NCBI RefSeq assembly: GCF_014926385.1
Contig: NZ_CP053291.1
Span: forward strand, 930,001-994,000
Reading direction: 5' to 3'
DNA length: 64,000 nt
DNA from: Trueperella pecoris
Lineage (GTDB): Bacteria > Actinomycetota > Actinomycetes > Actinomycetales > Actinomycetaceae
A model generated the notes under the pieces. It saw nothing but the letters and a program-made list of their open reading frames with translations. It was not told the origin of the DNA and did no database searches. Within the stretch, counting starts at the first letter, position 1. The number at the start of each line of letters is the position of its first letter. Below, in pieces: positions 1,792-40,825 of this stretch. Position numbers and translations under genes: made by a program.

Positions 1792-4700
1792 TTCCCTATG
1801 CCGAACTCCACGTTCACTCGGCTTACAGCTTCCTCGACGGAGCATGCATGCCCTCTGACCTCGTTGAACGCGCGGTCGAACTCGAGCTGACCGCCTTGGC
1901 GCTCACCGACCATGATGGGTTTGCCGGCGTCGTTCAACTTGCGACGGCGGCGCGCCGCTATGGCCTGCCCACGGTCATCGGGACGGAGGTGACGATCGGC
2001 GGCCTGCCCCGGTTGGGGCAGAAAGATCCTGACGGCGAACACCTGCTCATCCTCGCCCGCGATGCGCAGGGATACCGCGCGCTTTCGCAGACTATCGGTG
2101 AAGCGATGCTGGCTTCAGGCGTGAAGGGCTATGCCAACCACAGCTTGGAAAGCCTCTCGAGCGCGGCCAAGAACTGGCAAATTTTGACGGGGTGCCGCAA
2201 GGGTGGCCTGCGCCGGGCTTTGGAAACTGCCCCGGGAGTGTGGGCGTTGGATGAGGCTAGAGCCTACTTGGATCGCCTGAGTGCGCTCTTCGGGCGCGAA
2301 AATGTGGCTGTAGAAATCGTCAACTCCTGCCAGCCCTATGATCGCGAGCGCAACCATCACCTCGTCGAGTTAGCACGAGAGGCGGGTCTGCGGGCGGTCG
2401 CAACAGGCAACGTTCATAGTGCGCGGCCGCGGGACGCGGTGGTTGCCGACGTCATGGCGGCAACGCGTGCGAATCAATCGTTGGAGGACTATCGAAGCTG
2501 GCTGGCGGCGTGGCCGTCCTACTTGAAATCAGGGGAGCAGATGCTTCAGCTCCACGAGGATCATCCGTATGCGGTGGAGGTAGCTGACAGGATTGGGCGG
2601 GAATGCTCATTTGACCTCGCCCTCGTCGCCCCGCAGCTACCTCCGTTCCCAGCACCAGCTGGGCATACCGAAGCCACGTGGTTGCGTCACCTAGCGGAGG
2701 AGGGAGCCTTGCGCCGTTATGGAAGCCGTGCCTCCCACCCGCGCGCTTGGAAACAAATCGACCACGAGCTCGAGGTGATTGAGCAGCTGAACTTTCCCGG
2801 GTACTTTTTGATCATCCACGAGATTGTTGACTTTTGTGCGAGGCGGGGCATCTGGTGCCAGGGGCGTGGCTCGGCCGCGAATTCGGCGGTGTGTTTTGCC
2901 CTCGGGATTACGGCGGTTGATGCGGTTCGGCATCGTATGCTGTTTGAGCGTTTCCTCTCGCCGGGGCGTTCTGGACCGCCCGATATTGACATGGATATTG
3001 AGGCTTCTCGCCGCGAGGAAGTGATTCAGCACGTGTATGAAAGGTATGGGCGGCGCCATGCGGCCCAGGTTGCCAATGTCATCACGTATCGTCCGCGTTC
3101 GGCCATCCGGGACGCCGCCCGTGCCCTCGGGTATGAGCCCGGTCAGGCAGACGCGTGGGCGAAGTCGGTTGAACGGCGGCTGACTGGCACGGTCTCGGAG
3201 CAGACTCCAGCCGGCGCGTTCGCTCAACGCTGGGGTATTGACGAAGACGTCCCCGCCGCGGTGGCCGATATTGCGGCACGCTTGCAACGTCTACCTCGCC
3301 ATCTTGGTATCCACTCCGGTGGAATGGTGATTTGTGACCGTCCGGTGATTGAGGTGTGCCCCGTTGGTTGGGCGCGCATGGAGGGGCGCACGGTCCTCCA
3401 ATGGGATAAGGACGATTGTGCTCAGGCAGGTCTTGTGAAGTTTGACCTGCTGGGATTGGGAATGCTCAGCGCGCTTCGGATTGCTTTTAGCGAGCTCACA
3501 GAGCGTGGGATCAGGGCGAGTAATGGACAGCCGCTGGACCTGCACAACATTGACCAGGACGATGGGCGCGTATATGACCTACTGTGTGCCGCGGACACGA
3601 TCGGCGTTTTCCAGGTTGAATCGCGGGCGCAGATGGCCACGCTTCCTCGCATTCGGCCTCGGACGTTCTATGACATCGTTATCGAAGTGGCATTGATTCG
3701 TCCTGGGCCGATCCAGGGAGATTCGGTCAACCCGTACATCAATCGGCGGCGTGGGCGCGAGCCCGTCACCTACTCGCATCCGCTCCTCGAAAACGCGTTA
3801 GAGAAGACGCTCGGTGTCCCGCTTTTTCAAGAGCAGCTGATGCAGATCGCCATCGATGCCGCGGGCTTTACCCCCGCCCAGGCTGACCAGTTACGTAAGG
3901 CGATGAGCGCGAAGCGTAGCCACGAGCGTATGCGCGATTTACGTGATGAGCTCATGGAAGGCATGGCCCGGCGTGGCATTGGCCCTGCAGTGCGCGAAGA
4001 GATCTACAACAAGCTAGAAGCGTTTTCGGAGTTTGGTTTTCCCGAGTCTCATTCGTTTTCATTTGCGTATTTGGTATATGCGAGCGCGTGGCTCAAGGTG
4101 CATTATCCGGAGAATTTTTATGCAGGGATATTGGCCGCCCAGCCGATGGGATTTTATTCGCCTCAGACGCTGGTCGCCGATGCTCGCCGTCACGGTGTGC
4201 TCGTCTTGCCGGTTGACGTGTGCTTCTCGCATGAGCATTCGCACGTGGAGACGACGCCGTGGCGCAAGGCGCGTACGCATCCTCTGGTTGACGCCGATCC
4301 GTGTCGGGGCGTGCGCCTTGGCCTGTCGAATATCAAGGGACTACACGGCGCTGTCGGCAGAATCTTGGCGGCCCGGGATGAACGCCAGTTCGACTCCGTT
4401 GCCGATTTGGCCCGTCGCGCTCAACTTTCCACTGCTGATCTTGAAAAGCTCGCCGCAGCGGGGGCACTCTCTAGCCTCGGAATGGGGCGACGCGAGGGAA
4501 TTTGGGCGGCCGAAGCGTTGTCGTACGTCGCCACGAGGAACAGGCAATCAGTCCAGCTGACTATTCCGGGCCTTTACGTTGGTGCCAAGGCTCCTCAACT
4601 TGCGCCGATGAGCCCCGTGGAGGAGAACATGGCGGATTTGCGGTCGACGGGCCTGTCGGTGAGCGCCCATCCGATGGAGTTCTTGCGCAGCAGGCTGGAC

Positions 4701-36285: not shown

Positions 36286-38334
36286 ATGCGACCTATCAGT
36301 GACATCATTCGCCAAGAAGCGCCCTTCGAGGTTATCTCCGAGTATTCGCCCTCGGGCGATCAGCCGCAGGCTATTGCGGAACTGGCCGAGCGGATCAATA
36401 ACGGCGAATCGGACATCGTGCTCCTCGGTGCCACCGGTACGGGAAAATCAGCCACCACCGCCTGGCTTATCGAACAGATCCAGCGGCCCACGCTCATCTT
36501 GGAACCGAACAAGACCTTGGCGGCGCAGATGGCCGCAGAGTTTCGTGAGTTGCTACCGAACAACGCGGTCGAATACTTTGTCTCCTACTACGACTACTAC
36601 CAGCCGGAAGCCTACGTTCCGCAGTCGGATACCTTCATTGAGAAGGATTCCTCCATTAATGACGAGGTGGAGAGGCTTCGTCACTCCGCCACGAACTCGC
36701 TGCTGACGCGGAGGGACGTGGTGGTGGTCGCCTCGGTGTCGTGTATTTATGGCTTGGGCACGCCGCAGGAGTACGTCGATCGCATGGTGCAAGTGCGAGT
36801 GGGGGATCGCCTAGAACGCGATCAGCTCCTGAAAAAATTCGTCACGATGCAGTACACGCGAAACGATATGGCCTTCACACGCGGCACGTTTCGGGTGCGT
36901 GGGGACACGGTGGAGATTATCCCCGTCTACGAGGAACTGGCGGTACGCATTGAGTTTTTCGGCGACGAGATCGACTCAATTTCACTCCTTCATCCGCTGA
37001 CGGGCAAGGTCATCCGTGAATCGGATCACGCCCACATTTTCCCCGCCTCCCACTACGTGGCGGGTCCGGAGCGCATGGAGCGCGCGATGGCGTCGATCAA
37101 GGTTGAACTCGACGAGCGCCTCGAGGAGCTACGGGAACAGAACAAGCTCCTGGAGGCCCAGCGCCTCGAGATGCGTACGACCTTCGATCTCGAAATGATG
37201 CGGAACCTGGGCTCGTGTGCGGGCATTGAGAACTATTCACGCCACATTGATGGGCGTGGGCCGGGCACCGCGCCTAACACACTCTTGGACTACTTCCCAG
37301 ATGATTTTGTGCTGGTCATTGACGAATCCCACGTCACCGTTCCGCAGATCGGCGCGATGTACGAAGGAGACATGTCGAGAAAGCGCACCCTCGTCGAATA
37401 TGGCTTCCGCCTACCTTCAGCGATGGACAACCGCCCGCTGAAGTGGGACGAGTTCCTTGAACGCATTGGGCAGACGGTGTACCTGTCGGCAACGCCGGGC
37501 AAGTATGAGCTGGAGAAGTCCGATGGGTGGGTTGAACAGATTATTCGCCCCACTGGCCTTGTCGATCCCGAGGTGATCGTCAAGCCAACCAAGGGCCAGA
37601 TTGACGACCTGCTCGAAGAAGTACGCCTGCGCACGGAGCGTGACGAGCGTGTCCTCGTGACCACACTGACGAAGAAAATGGCTGAGGACCTCACTGACTA
37701 TCTTGCCGAACGCGGTGTTAAGGTCGAATACCTGCATTCCGACGTCGACACGCTGCGACGCGTCGAACTCTTACGCGAGCTGCGGATGGGCAAGTTTGAC
37801 GTGCTGGTGGGCATCAACCTCCTTCGCGAGGGCCTGGACCTTCCCGAAGTCTCGCTCGTTGCCATTCTCGACGCCGATAAGCAGGGCTTCTTGCGCTCCA
37901 CGACGTCCCTCATTCAGACAATCGGGCGAGCCGCGCGAAATGTGTCCGGCCAGGTGCACATGTACGCCGACTCGGTCACGCCAAATATGCGCGAGGCGAT
38001 TGACGAGACCAATCGTCGTCGTGAAAAGCAGATCGCATACAACACAGAGCACGGGATCGATCCGCAGCCGCTTCGTAAGAAGATCTCGGACGTGACGGAC
38101 ATGCTCGCGCGCGAAGACATCGACACGGAGGCACTGCTGGAGGGCGGCTACCGCCACGAGAGCTCCATCGCGGAGCGCCTGCCGCAAGACGGCCGAGAGA
38201 TCCGCCAACTGCTCGAGGACCTAACCGAACAGATGCATGTTGCGGCAGAGCAGTTGCAGTTCGAACTGGCCGCCCGGCTGAGAGACGAGATTTTGGACGT
38301 GAAGAAGGAGCTACGCCAGATCGAGAACGCATGA
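36286..38334 (+). CDS. uvrB: Excinuclease ABC subunit B
   Basis: This 682-aa DNA helicase-like damage verifier of nucleotide excision repair has Walker [16 protein letters not shown]. The beta-hairpin region is [21 protein letters not shown], followed by [35 protein letters not shown] and the RAARN helicase motif VI. The C-terminal UVR motif ([27 protein letters not shown]) contacts UvrC. Full length. No LexA box is obvious upstream, unlike uvrA. Confidence 0.98.
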
Positions 38335-38398
38335 TGTAGCCCATTGCACGGGCGGGAGGGAAGGAATAAAACCGCCCGTACACTAAAATTAATATCAG

Positions 38399-38510
38399 CG
38401 GAGGGGAGTACTCCCACTCAATATCGACTCGTCAGTACGGCGTTAGCCCGGGTCGTGGCCTGGTTCAGGCGGGAAGAGACCTCCGGTACTTGTTCGTCGT
38501 ACCGGAAAGG
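38399..38510 (+). ncRNA. yybP-ykoY-like manganese riboswitch
   Basis: The aptamer spans 38399-38485. P1 pairs CGGAGG (38399-38404) with CCTCCG (38480-38485). The first conserved loop strand is GGGGAGTA, and the middle has CGTCAGTACG. The partner strand is GGGAAGAGACC, a variant of the family consensus AAGACC. Immediately after, CCGGTAC - loop - GTACCGG (38483-38505) forms a hairpin whose 5' arm shares CCG with P1 and whose 3' arm abuts the ribosome binding site GGAAAGG (38504-38510). The location before a TerC-family gene is the classic context for Mn2+ sensing. Confidence 0.78.
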
Positions 38511-38518
38511 CACATACC

Positions 38519-39610
38519 TTGTCCACTCTTGGAATTTATACAGCTCCCGTTGGGTCAGTGATGCACGTTGACCCCTGGGAGTGGATACTGCTAGGCGCCA
38601 TCGTCGTCGGTCTTATTGCTGTGGACCTCGTGGGCCACGTACGAAACGCTCATGAACCTACACTCGGGGAGGCAGCACGATGGACCACATTCTACGTGTC
38701 GCTTGCCATCGTGTTCGGGGTCCTGACCTATGTTCGCCACGGGGGCCAATTCGCCACCGAGTATTTTGCGGGCTACCTAACCGAATATTCATTGTCGCTG
38801 GACAACATCTTCGTCTTCATCATCATCATCGCGGCCTTCCGAGTTCCACGGATCTACCAGCAGAAGGTGCTCCTCTATGGAATTGTGATCGCGCTAATCT
38901 TGCGCCTGATCTTCATCCTCATTGGCGCCAAGCTCATCGAGCAGTTTATCGCGGTGTTCTTTGTATTCGGAGCCTGGATGCTCTACACCGCGGTAAAGCA
39001 GGTCATCGACGGCATCCAAGAGGGACGTAAACGCAAGACGAACGAGCTTGACGACGACGAATACTCGCCGACCTTCGTCACCCGCCTCATCTCTCGCGTC
39101 GCCAACGTCACCGATGGGTACGTGGGAGACCGCCTGGTCCTGCGCCGTCAGGGTAAGACCTGGATCACGCCGCTAATGCTGTGCATCGTCTCCATCGGCA
39201 CGATCGACCTGATGTTCGCCCTCGATTCGATTCCGGCGATCTTTGGCCTGACGAAGGAGCCTTTCATTGTCTTCGCTGCGAACGCGTTTGCCCTGTTGGG
39301 CTTGCGTCAGCTGTTCTTTCTCGTCGACGGCCTGCTCGAGCGTCTGATCTACCTCCACTATGGGTTGGCCGTCATCCTCGGCTTCATCGCGCTCAAGCTC
39401 CTTGTCCACGCCTTCCATGGCTACGACATGCTCATGTTCATCCCCGAACCCTCGATCGGCGTCTCTGTCGGGGTGATTCTCGGTACGATCCTCATCACGG
39501 TCGCCGCATCGGTTTATGGCTCGCGCAAGTATGAGAATTTGAAAACGCCTGCGGACCGTGTGGCGAAGATCGAACCCCTCGAGGAACACAAGCCGAGTAT
39601 CGGCGACTAG
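38519..39610 (+). CDS. TerC-family membrane protein, probable Mn2+ exporter (Alx/MntX-like)
   Basis: This 363-aa integral membrane protein of the TerC/Alx family has about nine hydrophobic segments. The conserved acidic helix motifs are LTEYSLSLDNIFVFIIII and IGTIDLMFALDSIPAIFGLT; the Asp residues probably bind the cation. A charged cytosolic loop (EGRKRKTNELDDDEYSP) splits the two halves. The start is TTG 38519 with GGAAAGG 8 nt upstream; ATG 38561 is possible. The riboswitch upstream suggests expression rises with Mn2+, so export of excess Mn2+ is the likely role. Confidence 0.9.
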   Translation: MSTLGIYTAPVGSVMHVDPWEWILLGAIVVGLIAVDLVGHVRNAHEPTLGEAARWTTFYVSLAIVFGVLTYVRHGGQFATEYFAGYLTEYSLSLDNIFVFIIIIAAFRVPRIYQQKVLLYGIVIALILRLIFILIGAKLIEQFIAVFFVFGAWMLYTAVKQVIDGIQEGRKRKTNELDDDEYSPTFVTRLISRVANVTDGYVGDRLVLRRQGKTWITPLMLCIVSIGTIDLMFALDSIPAIFGLTKEPFIVFAANAFALLGLRQLFFLVDGLLERLIYLHYGLAVILGFIALKLLVHAFHGYDMLMFIPEPSIGVSVGVILGTILITVAASVYGSRKYENLKTPADRVAKIEPLEEHKPSIGD

Positions 39611-40548
39611 TCGGCGAGTCTGCGCGCGATAACTGCGCAGGCCATCAGCTGAACCTGATGGAAAATAATGACGGGCACGGCCACGGCCCCAACGATTGTA
39701 GGATCGAAGAGCGCTTTCGCCATTGGTAGCCCCGTGGCGAGCGACTTCTTCGACCCGCACATGAGTAGCACGATTCGCTGAGCGCGGGCAAACCCCAGGC
39801 GCCCGCTGGCATGCCAGGTCAGTGACAACATGATGGCGAGGAAGATCATCAGCACGACGAGCAGAAGGATGAAACTCCCAAGCGTCACCGAGCTCCACGC
39901 GCCCTCGCTTGTGGCCTTCTCGACGGCAACGAAGACCACCAAGATGATGGCAGCATTGTCTGTGTACTTGGTGATGGCTCGATGTGCCCTGACCCAGTTC
40001 TCGACCACGGGTTGCAACAATTGCCCGACGACGAACGGCAACAGCAATTTGAGAAGCACCGATTGAACGCCGCCGGTGTGGGCGTCGTCGAGATTCATGA
40101 AGGCCAGCACGAGGGCAGGGGTGATGAACATGCCCACGATGTTGGAGATCGTGGCGGAGCAGACCGCGGCTGCGACGTCTCCGCGTGCGATCGAGACGAA
40201 TGTGACCGAGGACTGAACCGTGGAAGGCAGCAGGCTCAGGTAGAGGAGACCGGTGGCGAAGGCAGAGCCAATCAGCGGGCCCGCTGACCAGTAGAAAAAG
40301 AGGCCGAGGAGCGGAAAGATGACGTACGTGGCCGCCAGAACCGAGGCTTGCAAACTGATGTTGCGCAGGCCATCGAGTACGTCGCTTGTACGCAGGCGCA
40401 TTCCATAGACGAGGAAGACCATGCCCACGCCGATGTCGGCGATTCTCGAGAGAGTCTCTAGTCGGCCCGGCTGCACGGGCACCGTGAGTCCCAAGATGAG
40501 GGCCAGGACGATGCCCGTGAGCAGGAAGTCCGGCCGAAACCGCCTCAT
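39607..40548 (-). CDS. Bile acid:sodium symporter (SBF) family transporter
   Basis: This 313-aa membrane protein with about ten hydrophobic segments belongs to the SBF-like/P7 type (LLTGIVLALILGL, GVGMVFLVYGMRL, YVIFPLLGLFFYW, GLLYLSLLPSTVQSSVTF, RIVLLMCGSKKSLATGLPMA). The substrate in bacteria is usually an organic anion with Na+, but it is not defined here. The ATG at 40548 follows the YciI stop by one base (TAGGATG), so it is translated by coupling. The 3' end overlaps the convergent TerC gene by 4 nt. Confidence 0.86.
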   Translation of the reverse strand: MRRFRPDFLLTGIVLALILGLTVPVQPGRLETLSRIADIGVGMVFLVYGMRLRTSDVLDGLRNISLQASVLAATYVIFPLLGLFFYWSAGPLIGSAFATGLLYLSLLPSTVQSSVTFVSIARGDVAAAVCSATISNIVGMFITPALVLAFMNLDDAHTGGVQSVLLKLLLPFVVGQLLQPVVENWVRAHRAITKYTDNAAIILVVFVAVEKATSEGAWSSVTLGSFILLLVVLMIFLAIMLSLTWHASGRLGFARAQRIVLLMCGSKKSLATGLPMAKALFDPTIVGAVAVPVIIFHQVQLMACAVIARRLAD

Positions 40549-40549
40549 C

Positions 40550-40825
40550 CTATGCCCAGGGGCCGTAGACGGCAGTCCATTGAAGCGCCTCGCGTGAATC
40601 AATGAGCGACTCGGTGTTCATGGGATCGCCTTCGAGGATGCCAAGGGCGGCGACGGCGTCGTCAGCCCTGATGATGATGAGCGCCTGGCCGCCTTCGAGC
40701 GGACCCGAGGCAAGGAGGACTCCTTCGTCCAGGAGGGTCTTGAGGAAGACGCGGTGGGCCGGGCGAACCTCGGCTTGGCGCTCGGTTTCGTGATTGTAGG
40801 TGTATCGAACTGCGTAAATAGCCAT
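40550..40825 (-). CDS. YciI-like protein
   Basis: This 91-aa ferredoxin-like alpha/beta barrel protein of the YciI/YCII family has the N-terminal strand IYAVRYTYNH, His in RPAHRVFLKTLLDEG, and LLASGPLEGGQALIIIRADD. The conserved His/Asp pair may form an active site, but no reaction is established for most members. It is expressed from a leaderless -10 box (TAGAAT) and is followed after one base by an SBF transporter, suggesting a shared small-molecule substrate. Confidence 0.86.
   Translation of the reverse strand: MAIYAVRYTYNHETERQAEVRPAHRVFLKTLLDEGVLLASGPLEGGQALIIIRADDAVAALGILEGDPMNTESLIDSREALQWTAVYGPWA

Follow-up and report, generated by a model that had tools for sequence, protein, structure and literature searches.

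The closest described systems to the leader reported here are the yybP-ykoY (RF00080) riboswitches of Xanthomonas oryzae yebN (6N2V), Lactococcus lactis yoaB (4Y1I), and Escherichia coli alx, and the leader of Corynebacterium glutamicum cg2157. In the X. oryzae and L. lactis crystals, the RNA forms a four-way junction (PMC6754395, PMC11087558) and P1.1 is the switching helix (for X. oryzae, PMC11087558). For X. oryzae, the switch has been reported to act on transcription (PMC6754395, PMC11087558). In E. coli, mntP and alx are activated by Mn2+, mntP at translation initiation (PMC9603457). In actinobacteria, the leader of Corynebacterium glutamicum cg2157 (terC) was listed as RF00080 with 49.1 bits and was detected in 2013 by RNA-seq (PMC3890552). 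Neither the class, nor the target, nor the type of mechanism is new, and an actinobacterial terC leader had already been assigned to RF00080. The novelty lies in the member itself, which has a three-helix junction and comes from a lineage in which the present Rfam model finds almost nothing. This leader occupies positions 38399–38521 of the window, the 64,000-nucleotide stretch of Trueperella pecoris DNA that was analysed, ahead of an alx-type terC gene.

Structure of the terC leader

The gene upstream, uvrB, ends at 38334. The gene downstream had been taken for a TerC gene in the initial annotation, and profile searches agree, with 158 bits for Pfam PF03741 and 344 bits for NCBIfam TIGR03718 (cut-off 246). 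Judged by TerC, the closest named relatives are Trueperella and Arcanobacterium. One report (PMC10550928) raises the possibility that TerC is a metal chaperone or metalation factor and not an exporter alone. An SBF-like (DUF4137) transporter gene on the minus strand (39610–40602) converges on terC and lies between it and uvrA. The features of the leader are as follows.

38384..38389, + strand, probable −10 box TAAAAT
38399..38404, + strand, P1.1 5′ strand CGGAGG; pairs with 38480–38485; covaries
38405..38410, + strand, L1 5′ strand GGAGTA; invariant in the alignments (residue roles from PMC6754395)
38411..38415, + strand, P1.2 5′ strand CTCCC; pairs with 38471–38475
38416..38424, + strand, unpaired linker ACTCAATAT (9 nt), replacing helix P2
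38425..38429, + strand, P3.1 5′ strand CGACT; pairs with 38451–38455; covaries
38430..38438, + strand, L3 5′ strand CGTCAGTAC, like CGTCATTACG of E. coli alx
38439..38448, + strand, P3.2 hairpin GGC-GTTA-GCC; covaries in 24 and in 96 sequences
38449..38450, + strand, L3 3′ strand CG, within the conserved CCGG
38451..38455, + strand, P3.1 3′ strand GGTCG; covaries
38458..38470, + strand, P4 hairpin GCCTG-GTT-CAGGC; covaries
38471..38475, + strand, P1.2 3′ strand GGGAA; covaries
38476..38479, + strand, L1 3′ strand GAGA; the same in E. coli alx and mntP
38480..38485, + strand, P1.1 3′ strand CCTCCG, the switch strand; pairs with 38399–38404 or with the ribosome-site hairpin strand
38504..38510, + strand, Shine-Dalgarno region GGAAAGG, 8 nt ahead of TTG; its position equals that of GGAGG/GAAGG in relatives
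38519..39610, + strand, terC/alx-family gene, 363 aa, TTG start at 38519

From the TAAAAT box, transcription probably starts at about 38395–38398, the 5′ edge of P1.1, and 36 of 49 terC leaders have a TAnnnT hexamer at about this place before P1.1. A consensus scan of the leader for a −35 box gave no match, and no intrinsic terminator was found in it.

All of the core elements of the Mn2+ (yybP-ykoY) riboswitch are present: L1, L3, P1.1, P1.2, P3, and P4. The elements GGGGAGTA (38403–38410), CGTCAGTACG (38430–38439), and AAGAGACC (38474–38481), together with P1, the hairpin, GGAAAGG, and the TTG codon, lie exactly where they had been annotated. L1 is GGAGUA/GAGA, and L3 is CGUCAGUAC/CG. As is typical of the class, the GGAGUA of L1 lies opposite (A/G)AGA and is enclosed by P1.1 and P1.2, the L3 adenosine lies inside (U/A)CA, opposite CCG, and the leader precedes a Mn2+ homeostasis gene (TerC/Alx here; TerC, GDT1, or a Na/Ca exchanger in relatives). 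The class feature absent from the leader is the four-way junction with P2. The covariation structure has no hairpin at 38416–38424, where an A-rich linker conserved in Actinomycetaceae stands instead, so that the leader would form a three-helix junction, in contrast to the crystallised RNAs. We treat P2 as a variable and not a defining element, since the Rfam consensus gives it just 3 bp. P1.2 contains one mismatch in the window, C38411 × A38475, where most Actinomycetaceae relatives have U-A.

When the leader is aligned to the numbering of the X. oryzae crystal, G38405, G38406, and A38407 correspond to G8, G9, and A10, and G38478 and A38479 to G93 and A94 (PMC6754395). A38434, within a CGTCA that is invariant across 40 aligned leaders, is the counterpart of the invariant Mn2+-contacting adenosine (A41 in L. 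lactis, A48 in X. oryzae; PMC6754395). In the alignment, all the metal-site residues are kept, and the core loops equal those of validated Mn2+ riboswitches, namely E. coli alx and the X. oryzae and L. lactis crystal cores (PMC6754395).

The leader has in common with RF00080 the GGAGUA/GAGA L1, the CGUCA..AC/CCG L3, the order P1.1-P1.2-P3-P4, and the placement before Mn2+ transporter-type genes; it differs in having no score at any threshold, no P2 hairpin, and a very short P3.2. With E. coli alx it shares the L1 and L3 sequences GGGGAGTA/CGTCATTACG/CCGG/GAGACC and the gene family, and in both leaders the strand after P1.1 is able to pair with a downstream G-rich strand. The alx leader is, however, longer, with a long P4 and an extra hairpin before the gene, whereas the start codon in the window is 33 nt past P1.1. 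The likeness to C. glutamicum cg2157, also an actinobacterial terC leader, is by listing and not base by base.

The AAGAGACC strand had been annotated as unusual, in comparison with AAGACC, but it is in fact the family form. It is no departure because GGGA(A) pairs in P1.2 with (Y)UCCC, leaving GAGA-CC as the loop strand, and this strand is identical in E. coli alx (GUGAGACC) and mntP (GCGAGACC). With GAGACC present in alx and mntP, AAGAGACC was no longer taken as the sign of a variant metal pocket.

Conservation and distribution

The ordered motif GGGGAGTA - TCCC - CGTCAnnACG - CCGG - GGG(A)AGAGACC recurs in the 450 nt before terC of relatives. It is found in Trueperella, Arcanobacterium, Ancrocorticia, Flaviflexus, Actinobaculum, Actinotignum, and Neoactinobaculum, and also in Cellulomonas, in Blastococcus, Modestobacter, and Geodermatophilus (Geodermatophilaceae), and in Nonomuraea. 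Judged from these sequences, its occurrence before terC across genera far exceeds chance. The invariant alignment columns include GGGGAGTA, CGTCA, and AGACC.

In 24 Actinomycetaceae sequences, pairs are kept in 95.5% of cells, and compensatory double changes are seen in 12 of 24 pairs. The covariation score is 0.336, against 0.173 for shuffled alignments (none of 500 shuffles as high) and at most 0.115 when the structure was slid. With 96 sequences, 95.9% of cells are paired, 22 of the 24 pairs show compensatory changes, and the score rises to 0.637 (shuffled 0.195, slid at most 0.112), although this larger alignment was made by covariance model and leans toward that model. The proposed yybP-ykoY Mn2+ aptamer class and the TerC target are supported by the comparative evidence. 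The single-sequence free-energy fold of the leader gives only z = −0.96, so fold energy alone would not reveal the riboswitch. A first MAFFT alignment was rejected, as P3.2 and P4 of Geodermatophilaceae were out of place in it and the RNAalifold consensus derived from it gave a local GG/CC hairpin and not P1.2; the Actinomycetaceae alignment and a model-based realignment were used instead.

RF00080 gave no match in the window at the gathering score, none at 38300–38620 with E up to 10, and none over the cut-off in the 2.28-Mb single-contig genome. The curated cut-off (Rfam 15) is 45 bits, which is a detection threshold and not a structural feature. In control searches, the E. coli alx leader was unmatched at E up to 0.1, as was a larger alx locus at E up to 1, and mntP scored 41.6 bits, under the cut-off. 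This negative result says little because the model misses alx and puts mntP below its cut-off. Thus, the search that had been proposed as a refuting test returned nothing, but given these controls the class is not refuted. The printed alignments show P1 unpaired in the RF00080 consensus, which may be the cause of the model's misses.

A covariance model built from the 24 Actinomycetaceae leaders finds a single match in the genome that holds the window, the window leader, at 99.9 bits. It matches 114 of 198 Actinomycetes genomes at E up to 0.01, whereas RF00080, on a same-size draw, gave 7 at E up to 0.01 and none over its cut-off; no C. glutamicum match over the cut-off was obtained with the current RF00080 in that control draw. 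E. coli alx is picked up by the relatives' model too, with a weak score (20.5 bits, E 0.014–0.024 in the locus set). The standard annotation source therefore misses the actinobacterial form, with 0 of 198 genomes over its cut-off against 114 of 198, and genome annotation probably under-reports Mn2+ riboswitches across the whole class Actinomycetes.

The genes downstream of 96 matches encode TerC (62), GDT1 (23), and a Na/Ca exchanger (1), the rest being unclassified by the search used; the regulated genes of relatives are thus TerC, GDT1 cation/proton antiporters, Na/Ca-type exchangers, and a few others. This gene content and the core sequence support Mn2+ as the likely ligand. Some riboswitch-like leaders precede other genes: a GreA/GreB-type protein at L159 (Pfam match) and L129 (by eye), a small PGPGW transmembrane protein at L160, and mutually related proteins at L151 and L189, that of L151 having no Pfam match. 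In Blastococcus saxobsidens the riboswitch is present twice (L058:2830–2932 and 4137–4243), at a distance of about 1.3 kb, with the second copy following the matched terC.

The competing hairpin

How could this aptamer control terC? The 3′ strand of P1.1 can also take part in a hairpin that reaches the ribosome-binding site.

38482..38506, + strand, alternative hairpin TCCGGTAC / GTACCGGA, 8 bp; arms 38482–38489 and 38499–38506, loop 38490–38498

CC at 38480–38481 could extend this hairpin with GG at 38509–38510 across an AA bulge. Since the hairpin has 8 bp, it shares TCCG with P1, and its 3′ end enters the first bases of GGAAAGG. The overlap had been correctly recognised, but as CCG, three bases instead of four. 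When the downstream stretch is shuffled, 0.5% of the shuffles give a stem as good or better. The aptamer strand and the ribosome-site stem are mutually exclusive, a feature of translational ON switches.

A competing stem was sought in 82 leaders by matching the P1.1 3′ strand to the next 45 nt. In many relatives, the ribosome-site partner is the Shine-Dalgarno sequence itself, as in these four.

L057, CCTCCGGTAC/GTACCGGAGG
L149, CCTTCGGTC/GACCGAAGG
L138, CCTCAAGC/GCTTGAGG
L140, CCTTGTG/CACAAGG

A convincing competing stem was not found in L007, L008, L014, L026, L028, L141, L145, and L146. The switch strand varies among relatives (CCTCCG, CCTTCG, CCTCAA, CCTTGT, CCTTGA), with P1.1 partners CGGAGG, CGAAGG, CTGAGG, ACAAGG, and TTAAGG and ribosome-site partners ACCGGAGG, ACCGAAGG, GCTTGAGG, CACAAGG, and GTCAAGG; in most variants both partners match the switch strand. 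In 58 terC-type leaders, the leaders' own downstream strands pair better than permuted ones (283.5 against a mean of 266.2, with none of 2000 permutations as high), a result inflated by the relatedness of the leaders. These strand changes, tracked across relatives, bear out the annotated competition between P1 and the ribosome-site hairpin, and such alternative pairing supports what would be a translational ON switch.

The hairpin state is computed to be favoured over P1.1 without ligand, by 5.9 kcal/mol in the window and by a median of 8.1 kcal/mol over 73 leaders. Forcing P1.1 in silico leaves the ribosome site more open in 63 of the 73. In the window taken by itself, the site is predicted to open modestly in the P1.1 state, from 0.12 to 0.35 unpaired, and AAGG of the ribosome site is predicted to be able to pair with CCTT near the start codon. 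The window hairpin ends just short of the AAGG core, and therefore the sequestration is partial here and is clearer in relatives.

Proposed mechanism

The analysis shows that the aptamer architecture is conserved, that the alternative pairing competes and co-evolves, and that the leader is associated with the gene. These results are best read, by analogy with X. oryzae P1.1 and E. coli mntP, in terms of the logic known for the class. We suggest, with a probability of about 0.9, that the leader is a Mn2+-sensing yybP-ykoY riboswitch that turns on the translation of a TerC/Alx-family manganese protein. At low Mn2+, the switch strand CCTCCGGTAC would be held in the hairpin covering or abutting the ribosome-binding site. 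Mn2+ would bridge L1 and L3, allowing P1.1 to form; P1.1 would then take CCTCCG from the hairpin, exposing the ribosome-binding site, and TerC would be made. We infer from this that Mn2+ is the ligand, that the ligand-bound state is ON, and that control is at translation, unlike the transcriptional switch described for X. oryzae. Mn2+-responsive control of TerC is predicted, with testable bases, for the animal-associated Trueperella and Arcanobacterium and for much of Actinomycetes.

A real aptamer could act mainly through mRNA decay or Rho-dependent termination and not by occlusion of the ribosome site. The incomplete occlusion in the window leader is in keeping with this, and combined Rho and riboswitch control is described for E. 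coli mntP (PMC11647493). We nevertheless consider it improbable, as in almost all relatives the competing strand sits at the ribosome-binding site, and often is that site, and the leader has no intrinsic terminator. It is less probable still that the same fold senses a different divalent metal, or pH, instead of Mn2+. Altered metal specificity has been suggested for some yybP variants in a review from the Breaker group (PMC7266159), and alkaline pH also triggers alx and mntP in E. coli (PMC9603457). However, the reported metal-site residues (G8, G9, A10, G93, A94, and the invariant L3 adenosine) are all kept, the loops equal those found ahead of E. coli alx, and the genes under control, TerC and GDT1, are those usual for Mn2+.

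That the region between uvrB and terC holds just conserved DNA or chance hairpins, with no riboswitch function, is hardly credible. The RF00080 result and the weak single-sequence z would fit such an explanation, but the compensatory changes in both alignments already contradict it, as does the wide conservation before two unrelated transporter families. The Mn2+ riboswitch remains the preferred reading of the leader.

L3 subtype and the downstream gene

L3 of the form UCAnnAC precedes TerC in all 62 classified cases (L122–L210 and the window), and L3 of the form GACAnnCU precedes GDT1 or a Na/Ca exchanger in all 24 classified cases, with two more by eye. Several genomes contain both subtypes, and the split seen in the actinobacterial leaders also holds for E. 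coli alx and mntP. A rather speculative explanation is that Actinomycetes have two Mn2+ riboswitch subtypes matched to the exporter, whose loops could sense different Mn2+ levels or kinetics and so give a graded response. Plain co-inheritance of leader and gene could also be the source of the split. We judge the L3 split the part most worth following; it opens a simple comparative experiment.

The expression platform of the GDT1 leaders (L124, L126, L143, and similar) would be unlike that of the terC leaders. In them, all of the L1 3′ strand would be paired within a long anti-aptamer helix, GCGAGACCUUCGACCC/GGGUCGGAGUCUCGC, after which comes a separate hairpin over the ribosome site.
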